This document shows positions 29,872 through 34,933 of a stretch of 64,000 bases of DNA, one piece after another. Each line of letters starts with the position of its first letter. Positions within the stretch are counted from its first letter, which is position 1. Under the pieces are notes generated by a model. It saw nothing but the letters and a program-made list of their open reading frames with translations, was not told the DNA's origin and did no database searches. Position numbers and translations under genes: made by a program. The stretch covers positions 1 to 64,000 of the forward strand of contig CAJXQU010000005.1 in assembly GCA_913058255.1 (NCBI GenBank), in the 5' to 3' direction. This DNA comes from an uncultured Pseudomonadota bacterium. GTDB lineage: Bacteria; Pseudomonadota; Gammaproteobacteria; CAJXQU01.

Positions 29872-29901
29872 ATTGACAGACAAGCAGCGATATTCTAGTC
29901 T
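29872..29901 (+). promoter_or_regulatory. Promoter of the metZ riboswitch transcript
   Basis: A perfect -35 TTGACA (29872-29877) is followed after 18 bases by TAGTCT (29896-29901). The predicted start, about 29908, lies directly before the SAM-II aptamer. The upstream 29701-29870 is AT-rich and I see nothing else in it except the divergent maeB promoter region. Confidence 0.6.
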
Positions 29902-29910
29902 TTTGTCTAT

Positions 29911-29964
29911 AGCGCCGATTTGATTCAATTCAGCTTGCAGGCGCGTAATAAATTTTGCTAAAGC
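29911..29964 (+). promoter_or_regulatory. SAM-II riboswitch aptamer upstream of metZ
   Basis: P1 is formed by GCGCC (29912-29916) and GGCGC (29940-29944). The loop GATTTGATTCAATT, the conserved CTTGCAGGCGCG block, the AATAAATTTT stretch and the pseudoknot strand GCTAAAGC (29957-29964) reproduce the order and sequence of the SAM-II consensus known from metX and metA leaders. It senses S-adenosylmethionine and controls the methionine-synthesis gene metZ that follows. SAM-II is best known in alphaproteobacteria. Confidence 0.88.
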
Positions 29965-29970
29965 GTGCGG

Positions 29971-30004
29971 CCTGCTTTAGTTTTCGCTAAATGCGGGTTT
30001 TTTT
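29971..30004 (+). terminator. Riboswitch-controlled terminator before metZ
   Basis: CCTGCTTTAG (29971-29980) pairs with CTAAATGCGGG (29987-29997) around TTTTCG, followed by seven T (29998-30004). GCTTTAG (29974-29980) can instead pair with the aptamer strand GCTAAAGC (29957-29964), giving an antiterminator. SAM binding would use GCTAAAGC in the pseudoknot and free the terminator. Confidence 0.8.
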
Positions 30005-30045
30005 CGTTTTAGGCCGATGTATTTTCAGTAATTTTAGGTACTCAA

Positions 30046-31218
30046 GTGGCTCACAAAGAAAACGAATATAGTCTACAAACATTAGCGATCAGAGCAGGGC
30101 ATCATAGAACTGCTGAGAGTGAACATGGCGAACCTATTTTCCCAACTTCTAGTTTTGTATTTGATAACGCGGCACAAGCAGCAGCGCGTTTTTCTGATGA
30201 AGAACCAGGTAATATTTATTCGAGATTTACAAATCCCACGGTTAGAATATTTGAAGAACGTTTAGCTGCATTAGAAGGTGCCGAACGTTGCATCGCAACA
30301 TCTTCTGGAATGAGTGCGATCTTAAGTACTTGTTTAGGCCTTTTAAAGCAAGGCGATCACATCGTTTCTTCGCGAAGTATCTTTGGTACAACGGTAGGTT
30401 TGTTTAATGGCATTATCAGCAAGTTCGGCATTGAAACCAGCTTTGTGCCCTCGACTGATCTTTCGGCATGGGAAGCGGCTATACAACCGGGAACTAAATT
30501 CTTATTTTTAGAGACACCTTCTAACCCGTTAACAGAGATTGCCGATATAAAGGCGTTGGCTGATCTGGCTCATTCACGAGGATGTTTATTAGTTGTTGAT
30601 AATTGTTTTTGTACGCCAGCTTTACAAAGACCATTGACCCTTGGTGCGGATATTGTGATCCATTCAGCGACTAAATATCTGGATGGCCAAGGGCGTTGTA
30701 TAGGGGGCGCCATTGTTGGTAGTGAAGAACTGATCGGAGGATCAGTGTTTGGTATCTTGCGCACAGGAGGTACGACCATGAGCCCGTTTAATGCTTGGGT
30801 TTTTCTAAAGGGATTAGAAACCTTATCCATCCGTATGAAAGCACACTGTGAAAATGCAAGTATCCTTGCGAATTGGCTGCAGGAACAATCATTTGTAAAA
30901 CATGTTCATTATCCGGGATTAAAAACACACCCACAGCATGAGTTAGCAAAACAACAACAGTCAGGTTTTGGTGGCATCGTTTCATTTGAAATTGACGGCG
31001 GAAAGAAAGCGGCTTGGAACTTGATTGATAGTACGAATGTATTTTCAATTACTGCAAATTTAGGTGATACAAAAAGTACCATTACACACCCTGGAACCAC
31101 AACACATTGGAAGCTAACCGACAAAGAAAGGAAAGAAGCTGGTATTACTGAAGGTTTGATCAGGCTTTCTGTAGGGCTAGAAGATGTTGATGACCTCAAA
31201 CGAGACTTAATTATATAG
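30046..31218 (+). CDS. metZ: O-succinylhomoserine sulfhydrylase
   Basis: PLP enzyme of methionine synthesis that makes homocysteine directly from O-succinylhomoserine and sulfide. It starts at GTG after TTAGGTA and has 390 residues. It belongs to the Cys/Met-metabolism family: YSRFTNPTV, the cofactor Asp in VVDNCF, and Schiff-base Lys210 in SATKYLDGQGR. The DGQGRCIGGA stretch is typical of MetZ rather than MetB or MetC. The SAM-II switch upstream fits feedback by the end product. In many gammaproteobacteria metZ follows purF directly; here maeB intervenes. Confidence 0.94.
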   Translation: MAHKENEYSLQTLAIRAGHHRTAESEHGEPIFPTSSFVFDNAAQAAARFSDEEPGNIYSRFTNPTVRIFEERLAALEGAERCIATSSGMSAILSTCLGLLKQGDHIVSSRSIFGTTVGLFNGIISKFGIETSFVPSTDLSAWEAAIQPGTKFLFLETPSNPLTEIADIKALADLAHSRGCLLVVDNCFCTPALQRPLTLGADIVIHSATKYLDGQGRCIGGAIVGSEELIGGSVFGILRTGGTTMSPFNAWVFLKGLETLSIRMKAHCENASILANWLQEQSFVKHVHYPGLKTHPQHELAKQQQSGFGGIVSFEIDGGKKAAWNLIDSTNVFSITANLGDTKSTITHPGTTTHWKLTDKERKEAGITEGLIRLSVGLEDVDDLKRDLII

Positions 31219-31411: not shown

Positions 31412-31503
31412 CCGCGAAACTTTACAAAAAACTTTTTAATTGAGGGAACGTGTACTTTTGCGATCTCTTGTTTTTGACAACTATAAAACTGAGGACATAT
31501 AAA

Positions 31504-32679
31504 ATGGCCGGACGTAACTTTCTCTTTATTCCTGGACCAACCACCATACCAAGGCGGGTTCAAAATGCTATCAATGTAGAACAAGAAGATATGCGAGCTC
31601 TCGACCTTCCTGAATTTACTAAACCACTTTATGCGGACATGAAAAAAGTCTTTAAGACTGAAACAGGTCGCGTATTTATTTTCCCTTCATCAGGCACTGG
31701 CGCTTGGGAATCTGCAATTACCAATACATTAAAGCCTGGAGACAAAGTACTTGCTTCACGTTTTGGCCAGTTCAGCCACTTGTTCATCGACTGTGCGAAA
31801 CGGCTTGGAATGGAAGTTGTTGAAGTTGATTGTGAGTGGGCTGTTGGTACACCTGCAGATAAGTTTGCTGAAATTCTTGCTGAAGATAAAAACCATGAAA
31901 TTAAAGCTGTCTTCGCGACTCACAACGAAACAGCAACGGGCGTAATGTCTGATATTAAAGCCGTTCGTGATTCTATTGATGCTTGTGATCACCCAGCTCT
32001 GTATTTCGTCGATACAGTAAGTGGCTTAGCTAGTCTTGACTTCCGCATGGATGAGTGGGGCGTTGATCTTGCAATTGCGGGTTCACAAAAAGGTCTTATG
32101 TTGCCTACTGGTTTAGGTATTCTTTGCGCGAGTGAAAAAGCATTAGAAGCAAATAAAACGGCTGAATGCCCACGTTGTTTCTTTGCTTGGGAAGATCAAA
32201 TTGCAACAAATGATCTAGGTTATTTTCCTTACACACCTCCTATGAATTTATTACGTGGCCTACGTGAATCTATGAACATGTTGTTCGAAGAAGGTTTGGA
32301 TAATGTCTTCGCTCGTCATACTCGCTTTGCGACGGCGACTCGAAAAGCTGTTGAAGCTTGGGGTTTGACTACGATCGCTAAAGAAGGTTGGCAGTCTGAC
32401 ACAGTAACAGCAGTCAAAGTGCCTGAAGGCTTTGATGGAAACGAAGTTGCTCGACATGCATACCGTCGTTACAACTTGGCACTATCGATTACGATCGGCC
32501 AGGTTATGGGGCAAGGTTTCCGTATCGGTCATATGGGTGACATGAATGAAATAATGTTGATGATCCCATTGAGCGGTGCAGAAATGACGATGAAAGATTT
32601 AGGTTATCCAATTGAGTTAGGCAGCGGTGTTGCTGCAGCTCAGGAATACCTATGCTCAACAGCTAAAGATCGTATCTAA
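31504..32679 (+). CDS. sgaA: Serine-glyoxylate aminotransferase
   Basis: Key serine-cycle enzyme that transfers the amino group of serine to glyoxylate, giving hydroxypyruvate and glycine. I chose ATG 31504 because a GAGGA Shine-Dalgarno lies about 10 bases upstream and the product then begins MAGRNFLFIPGPTTIP like its homologues; a GTG at 31450 would add 18 unlike residues. It has 391 residues, a class-V PLP aminotransferase, with HNETATGV, FVDTVSGLASLDF and Schiff-base Lys196 in AGSQKGLMLP. It is the first gene of sga-mcl-mtkA-mtkB. Confidence 0.95.
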   Translation: MAGRNFLFIPGPTTIPRRVQNAINVEQEDMRALDLPEFTKPLYADMKKVFKTETGRVFIFPSSGTGAWESAITNTLKPGDKVLASRFGQFSHLFIDCAKRLGMEVVEVDCEWAVGTPADKFAEILAEDKNHEIKAVFATHNETATGVMSDIKAVRDSIDACDHPALYFVDTVSGLASLDFRMDEWGVDLAIAGSQKGLMLPTGLGILCASEKALEANKTAECPRCFFAWEDQIATNDLGYFPYTPPMNLLRGLRESMNMLFEEGLDNVFARHTRFATATRKAVEAWGLTTIAKEGWQSDTVTAVKVPEGFDGNEVARHAYRRYNLALSITIGQVMGQGFRIGHMGDMNEIMLMIPLSGAEMTMKDLGYPIELGSGVAAAQEYLCSTAKDRI

Positions 32680-32782
32680 CATGGTTTTTTCTACCCCCTT
32701 CTTATTCGGAGGCGGGTGGTAACCGTAACCTAAAATTTAAATTTTTTTCTAATACTAAGCATAAAACTTAAGAGGTCTCACC

Positions 32783-33733
32783 ATGAGTTTTACACAGTTC
32801 GAACAAGCACGCCCACGTTTACAAAGAAGTGAGCTCGCAGTACCCGGCTCTAACCCTGGAATGTTTGAAAAAGCCGCCGCATCGGATGCTGACTATATCT
32901 TTCTTGATTGTGAAGATGCGGTTATTCCTGATGATAAGGAGCAAGCTCGAAAAAATATTATTGAAGCATTAAACGATATCGACTGGGGCAACAAAACCAT
33001 GTCGGTTCGTATCAATGGACTCGATACACATTATATGTATCGAGATGTTGTTGATATTGTAGAGCAGGCGGGTGATCGTCTCGATACAATATTGATCCCT
33101 AAAGTCGGTACAGCACAAGACGTACATGCTGTGGATATGTTGGTCACACAAATTGAAGAGGCCGTTGGTATTAAAGAAAAGATTGGTCTTGAATGTCTCA
33201 TCGAAACAGCATTGGGTGGAGCGAATGTTATGACGATTGCTCAAGCCAGTTCACGTTTAGAAGCCTTCCACTTTGGTGTTGCAGATTATGCAGCTAGTCT
33301 ACGTTCACGTACTACGGTTATTGGTGGTCTGAACCCTGATTATGTCTGTGATGGAAACCCAGCTGATCAGTGGCACGCTGCACAAGTAAATATGCTGACT
33401 GCATGCCGTGCATATGGCTTACGTGCTATCGATGGACCTTTCGGTGATTTCAGCGACCCAGAAGCATTCCGAGAAGCAGCACGTCGTGTTGCTGCTTTAG
33501 GTTATGAAGGTAAGTGGGCAATTCACCCATCTCAAATAGAATTAGCCAACGAAGTGATGTCTCCACCAGAAGCTGAAGTGACACGTGCAAGACGCGTACT
33601 TGAAGCACTGGCAGAAGCGGCTGCAGCCGGTAAAGGTGCAGCTCAACTAGATGGAAAAATGATTGATATCGCTTCTGAAAAAATGGCTCGTAATGTGATC
33701 GCTCAAGCCGATCAAATTGGTGCAAGAACATAA
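32783..33733 (+). CDS. mcl: L-malyl-CoA lyase
   Basis: Cleaves malyl-CoA to acetyl-CoA and glyoxylate, the last step of the serine cycle. It has 316 residues and is a CitE/HpcH-type TIM barrel. Signature segments are RSELAVPGSNPGMFEKA, the metal-binding FLDCEDAV (about 40-47), LETAL-like CLIETALGGANV and the C-terminal KWAIHPSQIELANE. The context between sga and the malate thiokinase genes identifies it as the malyl-CoA rather than citramalyl-CoA enzyme. AGAGG precedes the ATG. It is 103 bases after sga. Confidence 0.94.
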   Translation: MSFTQFEQARPRLQRSELAVPGSNPGMFEKAAASDADYIFLDCEDAVIPDDKEQARKNIIEALNDIDWGNKTMSVRINGLDTHYMYRDVVDIVEQAGDRLDTILIPKVGTAQDVHAVDMLVTQIEEAVGIKEKIGLECLIETALGGANVMTIAQASSRLEAFHFGVADYAASLRSRTTVIGGLNPDYVCDGNPADQWHAAQVNMLTACRAYGLRAIDGPFGDFSDPEAFREAARRVAALGYEGKWAIHPSQIELANEVMSPPEAEVTRARRVLEALAEAAAAGKGAAQLDGKMIDIASEKMARNVIAQADQIGART

Positions 33734-33754
33734 TAATAGAAGAGGAAAACTATT

Positions 33755-34933
33755 ATGGAAATCCATGAATATCAAGCTAAAGAACTCCTAGCGGAATTTG
33801 GCGTTGGTGTCGGACCTGGAGGCTTAGCCTACAGTCCCGAACAAGCCGTCTATCGTGCGAAAGAAATCGGTGGAGAGGTGTGGGCTGTTAAGGCACAAAT
33901 CCATTCCGGAGCACGTGGTAAAGCAGGTGGCATTAAAATTTGTAAAACGGATGATGAGATCTGGGCTGCTGCTGATGAACTACTAGGTAAGCGTCTGATA
34001 ACACATCAAACAGGCCCTCAAGGTAAAGTCGTTCATCGATTATATATTGAACAGGGTTGTGATATTAAGCGTGAGATCTATTTAGCATTCGTTTTAGATC
34101 GAGCGGCGGAACGTGTCACTGTTGTTGCATCATCAGAAGGTGGTATGGACATAGAACAATTGGCTGAAGAAAAGCCAGAGTCTATTATTAAGATCCATGT
34201 AGAACCGGCTGTTGGTCTACAAGACTTTCAAGCGCGAGAGTTAGCTTTCGCGTTAGGGCTTCCTGCGTCAATGATGAGTCAAGCAGTGACTACTTTCCAA
34301 GGCGCCTATCGTGCGATGCGCGATCTGGACGGTACGATGGTTGAGATCAATCCATTAGTTGTAACCGGTGATGGCCGATTATTAGCATTGGATGGCAAGA
34401 TGTCTTTTGATGATAACGCCATGTTCCGTCACCCGAAACTCGCTGAGTTACGTGATAAATCGCAAGAAGATCCACGTGAAATGCAAGCAGCTGATCGTGG
34501 TTTAAGCTACGTTGGTTTAGATGGAAATATCGGTAACATTATCAATGGTGCGGGCCTCGCTATGGCGTCGATGGATATGATCCAACATGCTGGAGGCGAA
34601 CCTGCTAACTTCCTTGATATCGGTGGTGGAGCTTCTGCTGAACGTACAGCAAAAGCCTTCCGTTTAGTTTTAGCGGATGAGAATGTAGAAACGATTCTCG
34701 TCAATATCTTTGCGGGAATAAATCGTTGTGATTGGATCGCTGAAGGTGTTGTTCAAGCGGTGCAAAAAATTGATATTGGTGTTCCTTTGATTGTGAGATT
34801 GTCAGGAACCAATGTTGAAGAAGGTCGCAAGATCATCAAAGACAGTGGTTTGGATATCATCATGGCAAATACTTTAAAGGAAGCTGCGGATAAATCCGTG
34901 GCTGCTTGGAAAGCTCATACTGGAAAGTCATAA
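33755..34933 (+). CDS. mtkA: Malate-CoA ligase (malate thiokinase) beta subunit
   Basis: With MtkB, forms malyl-CoA from malate, CoA and ATP. It has 392 residues and is SucC-like: ATP-grasp N-terminus with [31 protein letters not shown] and EINPLVV, and a C-terminal ligase domain with LDIGGGA and [16 protein letters not shown]. Sequence alone makes it a succinyl-CoA-synthetase relative. The assignment to malate rests on the flanking mcl and the lack of any TCA-cycle neighbours. AGAGGAAAA is the ribosome site, 21 bases after mcl. Confidence 0.93.

Follow-up and report, generated by a model that had tools for sequence, protein, structure and literature searches.

The leader of metZ in a gammaproteobacterial genome probably carries a SAM-II OFF switch (a probability of about 0.87), in which SAM would cause premature transcription termination before the gene. 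This reading is based on sequence, structure, conservation, covariation, gene context and folding energies. The features concerned are collected in Table 1, with coordinates referring to the window, which is the whole stretch of 64,000 nt that was analysed; all the elements named in an earlier note on this DNA lie where it had placed them or within one or two bases. The metZ leader element is a further case of a known riboswitch type and the locus itself is textbook, while the scale of SAM-II under-detection in the class is mildly new.

Table 1. Features of the metZ leader in the window.
Feature	Position	Strand	Basis or remark
Promoter TTGACA	29873-29878	+	Sequence; same place in relatives
Promoter spacer, 17 nt	between TTGACA and TAGTCT	+	Sequence
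Promoter -10 TAGTCT	29896-29901	+	Ends 10 nt before P1
P1 5' strand GCGCC	29912-29916	+	Alignments A1 and A3
Loop L1 GATTTGA	29917-29923	+	T columns invariant in A1
Pseudoknot P2 5' strand TCAGCTTGC	29930-29938	+	TTGC invariant; P2 core pairs invariant
Segment CAGCTTGC within P2 5' strand	29931-29938	+	Sequence
P1 3' strand GGCGC	29940-29944	+	Alignments
Pseudoknot P2 3' strand GCTAAAGC, also predicted antiterminator 5' strand	29957-29964	+	GCTAAA invariant in A1; folding
Intrinsic terminator hairpin	29969-29999 (core stem 29971-29997, loop 29982-29985)	+	Folding
Terminator 5' arm GCTTTAG, also predicted antiterminator 3' strand	29974-29980	+	Folding
U7 tract, expected termination point	29998-30004	+	Sequence
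metZ, O-succinylhomoserine sulfhydrylase, 390 aa, GTG start	30046-31218	+	NF006003, TIGR01325

Genomic context and promoter

The product of the gene starting with the GTG at 30046 exceeds the cut-offs of both NF006003 (680 bits, cut-off 522) and TIGR01325 (579 bits, cut-off 510), in agreement with the choice of metZ as the target gene in the earlier note. The gene purF lies upstream of the metZ leader and a malic enzyme gene is divergent. MetJ, the usual SAM repressor of gammaproteobacteria, was not found in the genome in a search that had E. coli as positive control. On the 3' side of metZ (31450-34933) the window contains genes for a BhcA-like aminotransferase and for a protein similar to CitE/malyl-CoA lyase; a third frame resembles, by eye only, the beta subunit of a succinyl- or malyl-CoA ligase; these genes are suggestive of a serine-cycle-type cluster.

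A promoter directly before the aptamer had been proposed, and TTGACA-17-TAGTCT (29873-29901) or a close variant does occur at the equivalent place in relatives, with a mean promoter score of 9.4 versus 7.3 in shuffles. In particular, TTGAC is present within 60 nt upstream in 42 of 47 leaders, and the -10 most commonly chosen is TAGTCT. The generic promoter scan of the window did not list this promoter because TAGTCT is a weak -10.

Identification of the SAM-II aptamer

The search with the Rfam SAM-II model RF00521, which the earlier note had suggested as a check, was performed on 211 bases against all 4227 Rfam families and gave a match of 28.9 bits (E 5.3e-5); the match falls short of the curated cut-off of 36, which is a curator's threshold and not a structural feature. 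As the score is below this cut-off, the default Rfam scan of the whole window reported nothing at the aptamer site. The low score was not taken as a refutation, and orthologues and a newly built model served as further tests. Across the 2.78-Mb genome the aptamer is the best RF00521 match (28.9 bits versus 15.8 for the next), and the search for other SAM-II copies with RF00521 in the same genome returned only noise. Two other genomes of the same genus, whose leaders are identical to those of loci L009 and L010 from metagenome-assembled Gammaproteobacteria, score 29.6 and 37.8 bits, the latter above the cut-off. The SAM-II long loop model RF01726 gave 14.6 bits on the window (cut-off 44, E 2.2), and the element is not assigned to that family.

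The new covariance model, R1, was built from 39 orthologous regions upstream of metZ, window included, and scores the window at 68.9 bits (E 2.8e-17), a value that is partly due to construction since the window is among the training sequences. Among 80 MetZ loci of other genomes, fetched by MetZ similarity, the aptamer precedes metZ in at least 45, a lower bound because some loci end too near metZ to be judged.

P1 is paired in 100% of 103 distinct relatives and shows changes on both sides at four of its five pairs, the first pair passing, for example, from G-C to C-G, U-A and A-U. The core of P2 is also 100% paired and, being invariant, is neither supported nor opposed by covariation, while the P2 extension covaries among the 103 distinct R1 matches, in an alignment fitted to P1 and not to P2 because R1 holds P1 only. 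The covariation score was not reached by any of 500 shuffles, and the signal is abolished when the partner columns are slid. Pairing and covariation together point to an H-type fold, with the P1 stem and L1 in the P2 pseudoknot; in the window the P2 extension is weak and consists of one C-G pair followed by U-U and U-G.

The residues forming the SAM pocket in crystal structure 2QWY are U10-U12, U20, U21, G22, C23 and G42-A47 (PMC3764141). They map respectively to 29919-29921 (U10-U12), 29935-29938 (U20-C23, TTGC) and 29957-29962 (G42-A47), are all present in the window and occupy invariant columns in A1; in the wider set of relatives a few members deviate from the pocket consensus, in L1. By structure, pocket residues and gene context the element found at 29912-29964, which had been placed at 29911-29964, is a SAM-II riboswitch, with a predicted capacity to bind SAM.

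Terminator, antiterminator and proposed switch

The terminator expected at 29971-30004 was found as a core stem followed by the U7 tract (Table 1), of which a generic terminator scan reported no more than the upper stem, and a terminator lies downstream of 80 of 104 distinct aptamers of relatives. The complementarity of GCTTTAG to the pseudoknot strand, also pointed out in the earlier note, extends in folding to a predicted antiterminator of nine pairs, G29957-G29965 with 29973-29981, both end pairs being G-U. With the 3' strand of P2 made unavailable, as it would be with SAM bound, the terminator is the predicted fold of the window (-13.8 kcal/mol), and when this strand is free the fully transcribed leader folds into the antiterminator and a small downstream hairpin (-12.8 kcal/mol). 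The suggested folding of 29908-30010 with and without the pseudoknot gave in this way two exclusive forms, while plain minimum-energy folding of the same segment, a method that cannot represent a pseudoknot, was unremarkable (z -1.22).

The terminator is slightly stabler than the antiterminator in the window, and at equilibrium the OFF form would prevail even if SAM were absent; in the two nearest relatives the balance lies on the side of the antiterminator, by about 3 and 8 kcal/mol (-16.2 versus -13.1 and -21.1 versus -13.3, respectively). As the window is near energetic balance, the decision of the switch would be kinetic. When the growing transcript is folded stepwise with the nearest-neighbour model, the mean pair probability of the antiterminator is 0.91-0.94 at ends 29981-29987 and becomes uneven at ends 29990 to 29996 (0.63, 0.24, 0.86); by 29999 the terminator has taken its place. 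The antiterminator complementarity of the window has a p of 0.02 against mononucleotide shuffles and of 0.21 against dinucleotide shuffles, and that between the P2 3' strand and the terminator-arm region beats dinucleotide shuffles (p<=0.05) in 60 of 80 leaders. The case for the predicted antiterminator is carried by conservation across relatives and is modest for the window alone. Folding and comparison agree with an intrinsic terminator and a mutually exclusive antiterminator that overlaps the aptamer, with the polarity that had been proposed, in which the choice between the two forms would depend on SAM.

In the proposed mechanism, RNA polymerase would start a few nucleotides before P1. At low SAM the strand GCUAAAGC (29957-29964) would be free to pair with GCUUUAG (29974-29980) once this arm is transcribed, and the antiterminator so formed would prevent the terminator hairpin and allow metZ to be transcribed. 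At high SAM the P1/P2 pseudoknot would be stabilised and would occupy strand 29957-29964, so that the antiterminator would be unable to form, the terminator (29971-29997) would fold, and transcription would stop in the U tract near 30004 with the release of a short leader RNA. From the evidence above we infer where transcription starts, that SAM binds, in which direction the switch responds and that its decision is kinetic. The points against the OFF switch are the RF00521 score below the cut-off, the terminator stabler than the antiterminator, the p of 0.21 and the weak P2 extension.

Alternative explanations

Some of these points could be accounted for by a SAM-II aptamer placed before a constitutive attenuator, in which SAM would barely alter termination since the terminator is favoured anyway. 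The folding energies of the window and its own dinucleotide-shuffle result would fit such an arrangement, as would the S. meliloti metA SAM-II terminator, which lowers expression at both high and low SAM (PMC9373788). However, a strong antiterminator is kept in same-genus and wider relatives, GCTTTAG is retained as the complement of the invariant ligand-pocket strand, and the antiterminator is the main form of the nascent transcript until the 3' arm is made; constitutive attenuation is regarded as improbable. A look-alike of SAM-II, with another ligand or with lost binding, would agree with the sub-threshold RF00521 score and with the short and weak P2 extension, but every SAM-contacting residue reported in 2QWY is kept and aptamers found by the same model precede the SAM synthetase gene metK and other methionine genes, which makes this explanation very improbable; the SAH riboswitch search gave no match and is uninformative, since the control search likewise matched nowhere.

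The binding of SAM might instead mask the ribosome-binding site of metZ, as is thought to occur in other SAM-II RNAs such as that of S. meliloti metA (PMC9373788); folding predicts that the AGGTAC site ahead of the GTG is engaged in a small hairpin, and some leaders of the set have no recognisable terminator. However, the AGG of this site (30036-30038) is about 70 nt beyond P2, with a strong terminator in between, and its pairing partner is local (30019-30024). The small hairpin is formed equally when 29998-30060 is folded alone and is therefore independent of the aptamer, so that SAM-dependent translational control received no support, was set aside and is considered highly unlikely.

Distribution in the class and detection gap

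The distribution of the aptamer was evaluated in 369 genomes spread evenly over the class, which in GTDB includes the former betaproteobacteria. At E<=0.001, R1 matches 184 of the 369 genomes, about 159 of them with E < 1e-10, a result that does not support the novelty which the earlier note had drawn from SAM-II being mostly described in alphaproteobacteria. RF00521 matches 118 of the 369 at the same E value, with just 30 genomes above its cut-off; a control set of 14 genomes gave no RF00521 match at E<=0.001, a control that covers RF00521 and not R1. A SAM-II switch is present in roughly 40-50% of the sampled class genomes, and the standard cut-off misses most of them.

Downstream genes were analysed in 70 loci, from the sampled class genomes and two plasmid matches. 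The longest open frame just downstream is a MetZ-like gene in 41 of the 70, with a few low scorers that are related PLP enzymes, and the other downstream genes include metK, metX, metF and MetN-type transporter genes, metK and MetN being called by model in some cases and by sequence likeness in the rest. The aptamer is thus located before genes of methionine and SAM metabolism both in the window (metZ) and in its relatives (metZ-type, metK, metX, metF and MetN-type).

Several loci show particular arrangements. Tandem SAM-II aptamers about 100 nt apart, a type of pair already known (PMC9481103), were observed in genomes G247, G119 (L132), G359 (L154) and G123 (L152); G247 has a high copy number, its ten matches forming five pairs (e.g., L134, L151 and L158). 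In locus L021 two SAM-II leaders that are nearly identical (1952-2017 and 2747-2812) are separated by about 800 nt, and each has its own promoter. Plasmid 21 of Legionella adelaidensis (NZ_LR134430.1, 15 kb) carries a SAM-II aptamer (L159:1498-1565, R1 67.5 bits) with a MetN-like reading frame downstream, at a site without an annotated feature. In genome G108 a SAM-II-like element with GAGTT in place of the usual GATTT loop precedes metK and a standard SAM-II precedes metX (L157:1501-1567 and L137:1501-1564). The metZ leader of a Cocleimonas MAG (L071:2666) keeps P1 and CAGCTTGC and has no GCTAAA at the usual place, and its aptamer is possibly decayed or altered.

These results outline an annotation gap, in which about 8% of the sampled class genomes are assigned a SAM-II by standard Rfam thresholds and about 50% by a model trained on the group. 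A simple and testable improvement would be to retrain RF00521 with these sequences. A wider occurrence of SAM-II changes the picture of the regulation of methionine synthesis in those gammaproteobacteria that lack MetJ, and may give an identity to at least one orphan RNA element.

Comparison with known systems

Corbino et al. 2005 (PMC1273637) already noted that many SAM-II elements are followed by putative terminators, put forward the idea of an OFF switch, and reported a start site close to P1 as well as a few SAM-II cases outside alphaproteobacteria. Barrick and Breaker 2007 listed SAM-II in gammaproteobacteria and stated that in alpha- and betaproteobacteria no other aptamer is so often accompanied by a transcription terminator (PMC2258182), which contradicts the statement of the earlier note that SAM-II often acts on translation, taken as a general rule. 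Scheuer et al. 2022 provided evidence for terminator control at S. meliloti metZ, where at high SAM the terminated sRNA goes up and metZ mRNA goes down (PMC9373788). The novelty that had been attributed to a terminator-coupled SAM-II in a gammaproteobacterium does not hold, the coupling being known since 2005, the occurrence in gammaproteobacteria since 2007 and a metZ case since 2022. A search of the open-access literature, with subscription papers mostly outside it, found no paper on a gammaproteobacterial metZ SAM-II as such.

The window shares with Rfam SAM-II (RF00521, SAM_alpha) P1, the P2 pseudoknot, identical pocket residues, a methionine biosynthesis target, a promoter a few nucleotides upstream and a terminator between P2 and the gene. 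It differs from RF00521 in its P2 extension, which is short (in most relatives of the UC/GA type) where the consensus has a longer GGCC/GGCC, in its G+C-rich P1 and in its score below the Rfam cut-off. The S. meliloti metZ SAM-II (sRNA RZ) has the same aptamer class, gene name and predicted SAM-dependent intrinsic terminator, but belongs to an alphaproteobacterium in which an extra mRNA stabilisation was reported (PMC9373788).

In about 200 genomes, Leyn et al. 2014 detected SAM_alpha in no group other than Rhizobiales and Rhodobacterales; the metXZ RNA element, which they reported from betaproteobacteria, was presented as new and separate (PMC4239095). Like the leader in the window, this element lies upstream of metX/metZ and contains pseudoknot regions 1/4 and 2/6 followed by a terminator, and its consensus has M (A or C), which would agree with GCTAAAG[A/C]G in the present case; from this comparison of location, pseudoknot and consensus we infer that the element published as new is SAM-II. 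In the metZ leader of Caballeronia sp. SBC2 plasmid pSBC2-2 (L160:1472-1677), RF02424 (Burkholderia sRNA Bp2_287) matches the complementary strand of a SAM-II-like leader with 96.4 bits, and the SAM-II core in reverse complement (GCAaGCugaaAUCAAAUCGACGC, CGCUUUAGC) occurs in the RF02424 consensus; this family may represent the SAM-II riboswitch modelled from the wrong strand. A broader reading, which appears somewhat favoured, is that SAM-II is a common regulator of metZ, metK, metX, metF and MetN-type genes, some in tandem, in broad Gammaproteobacteria, with a short-P2 branch mostly missed by the Rfam cut-off, and that the betaproteobacterial metXZ element and RF02424, the latter modelled on the wrong strand, are the same riboswitch.
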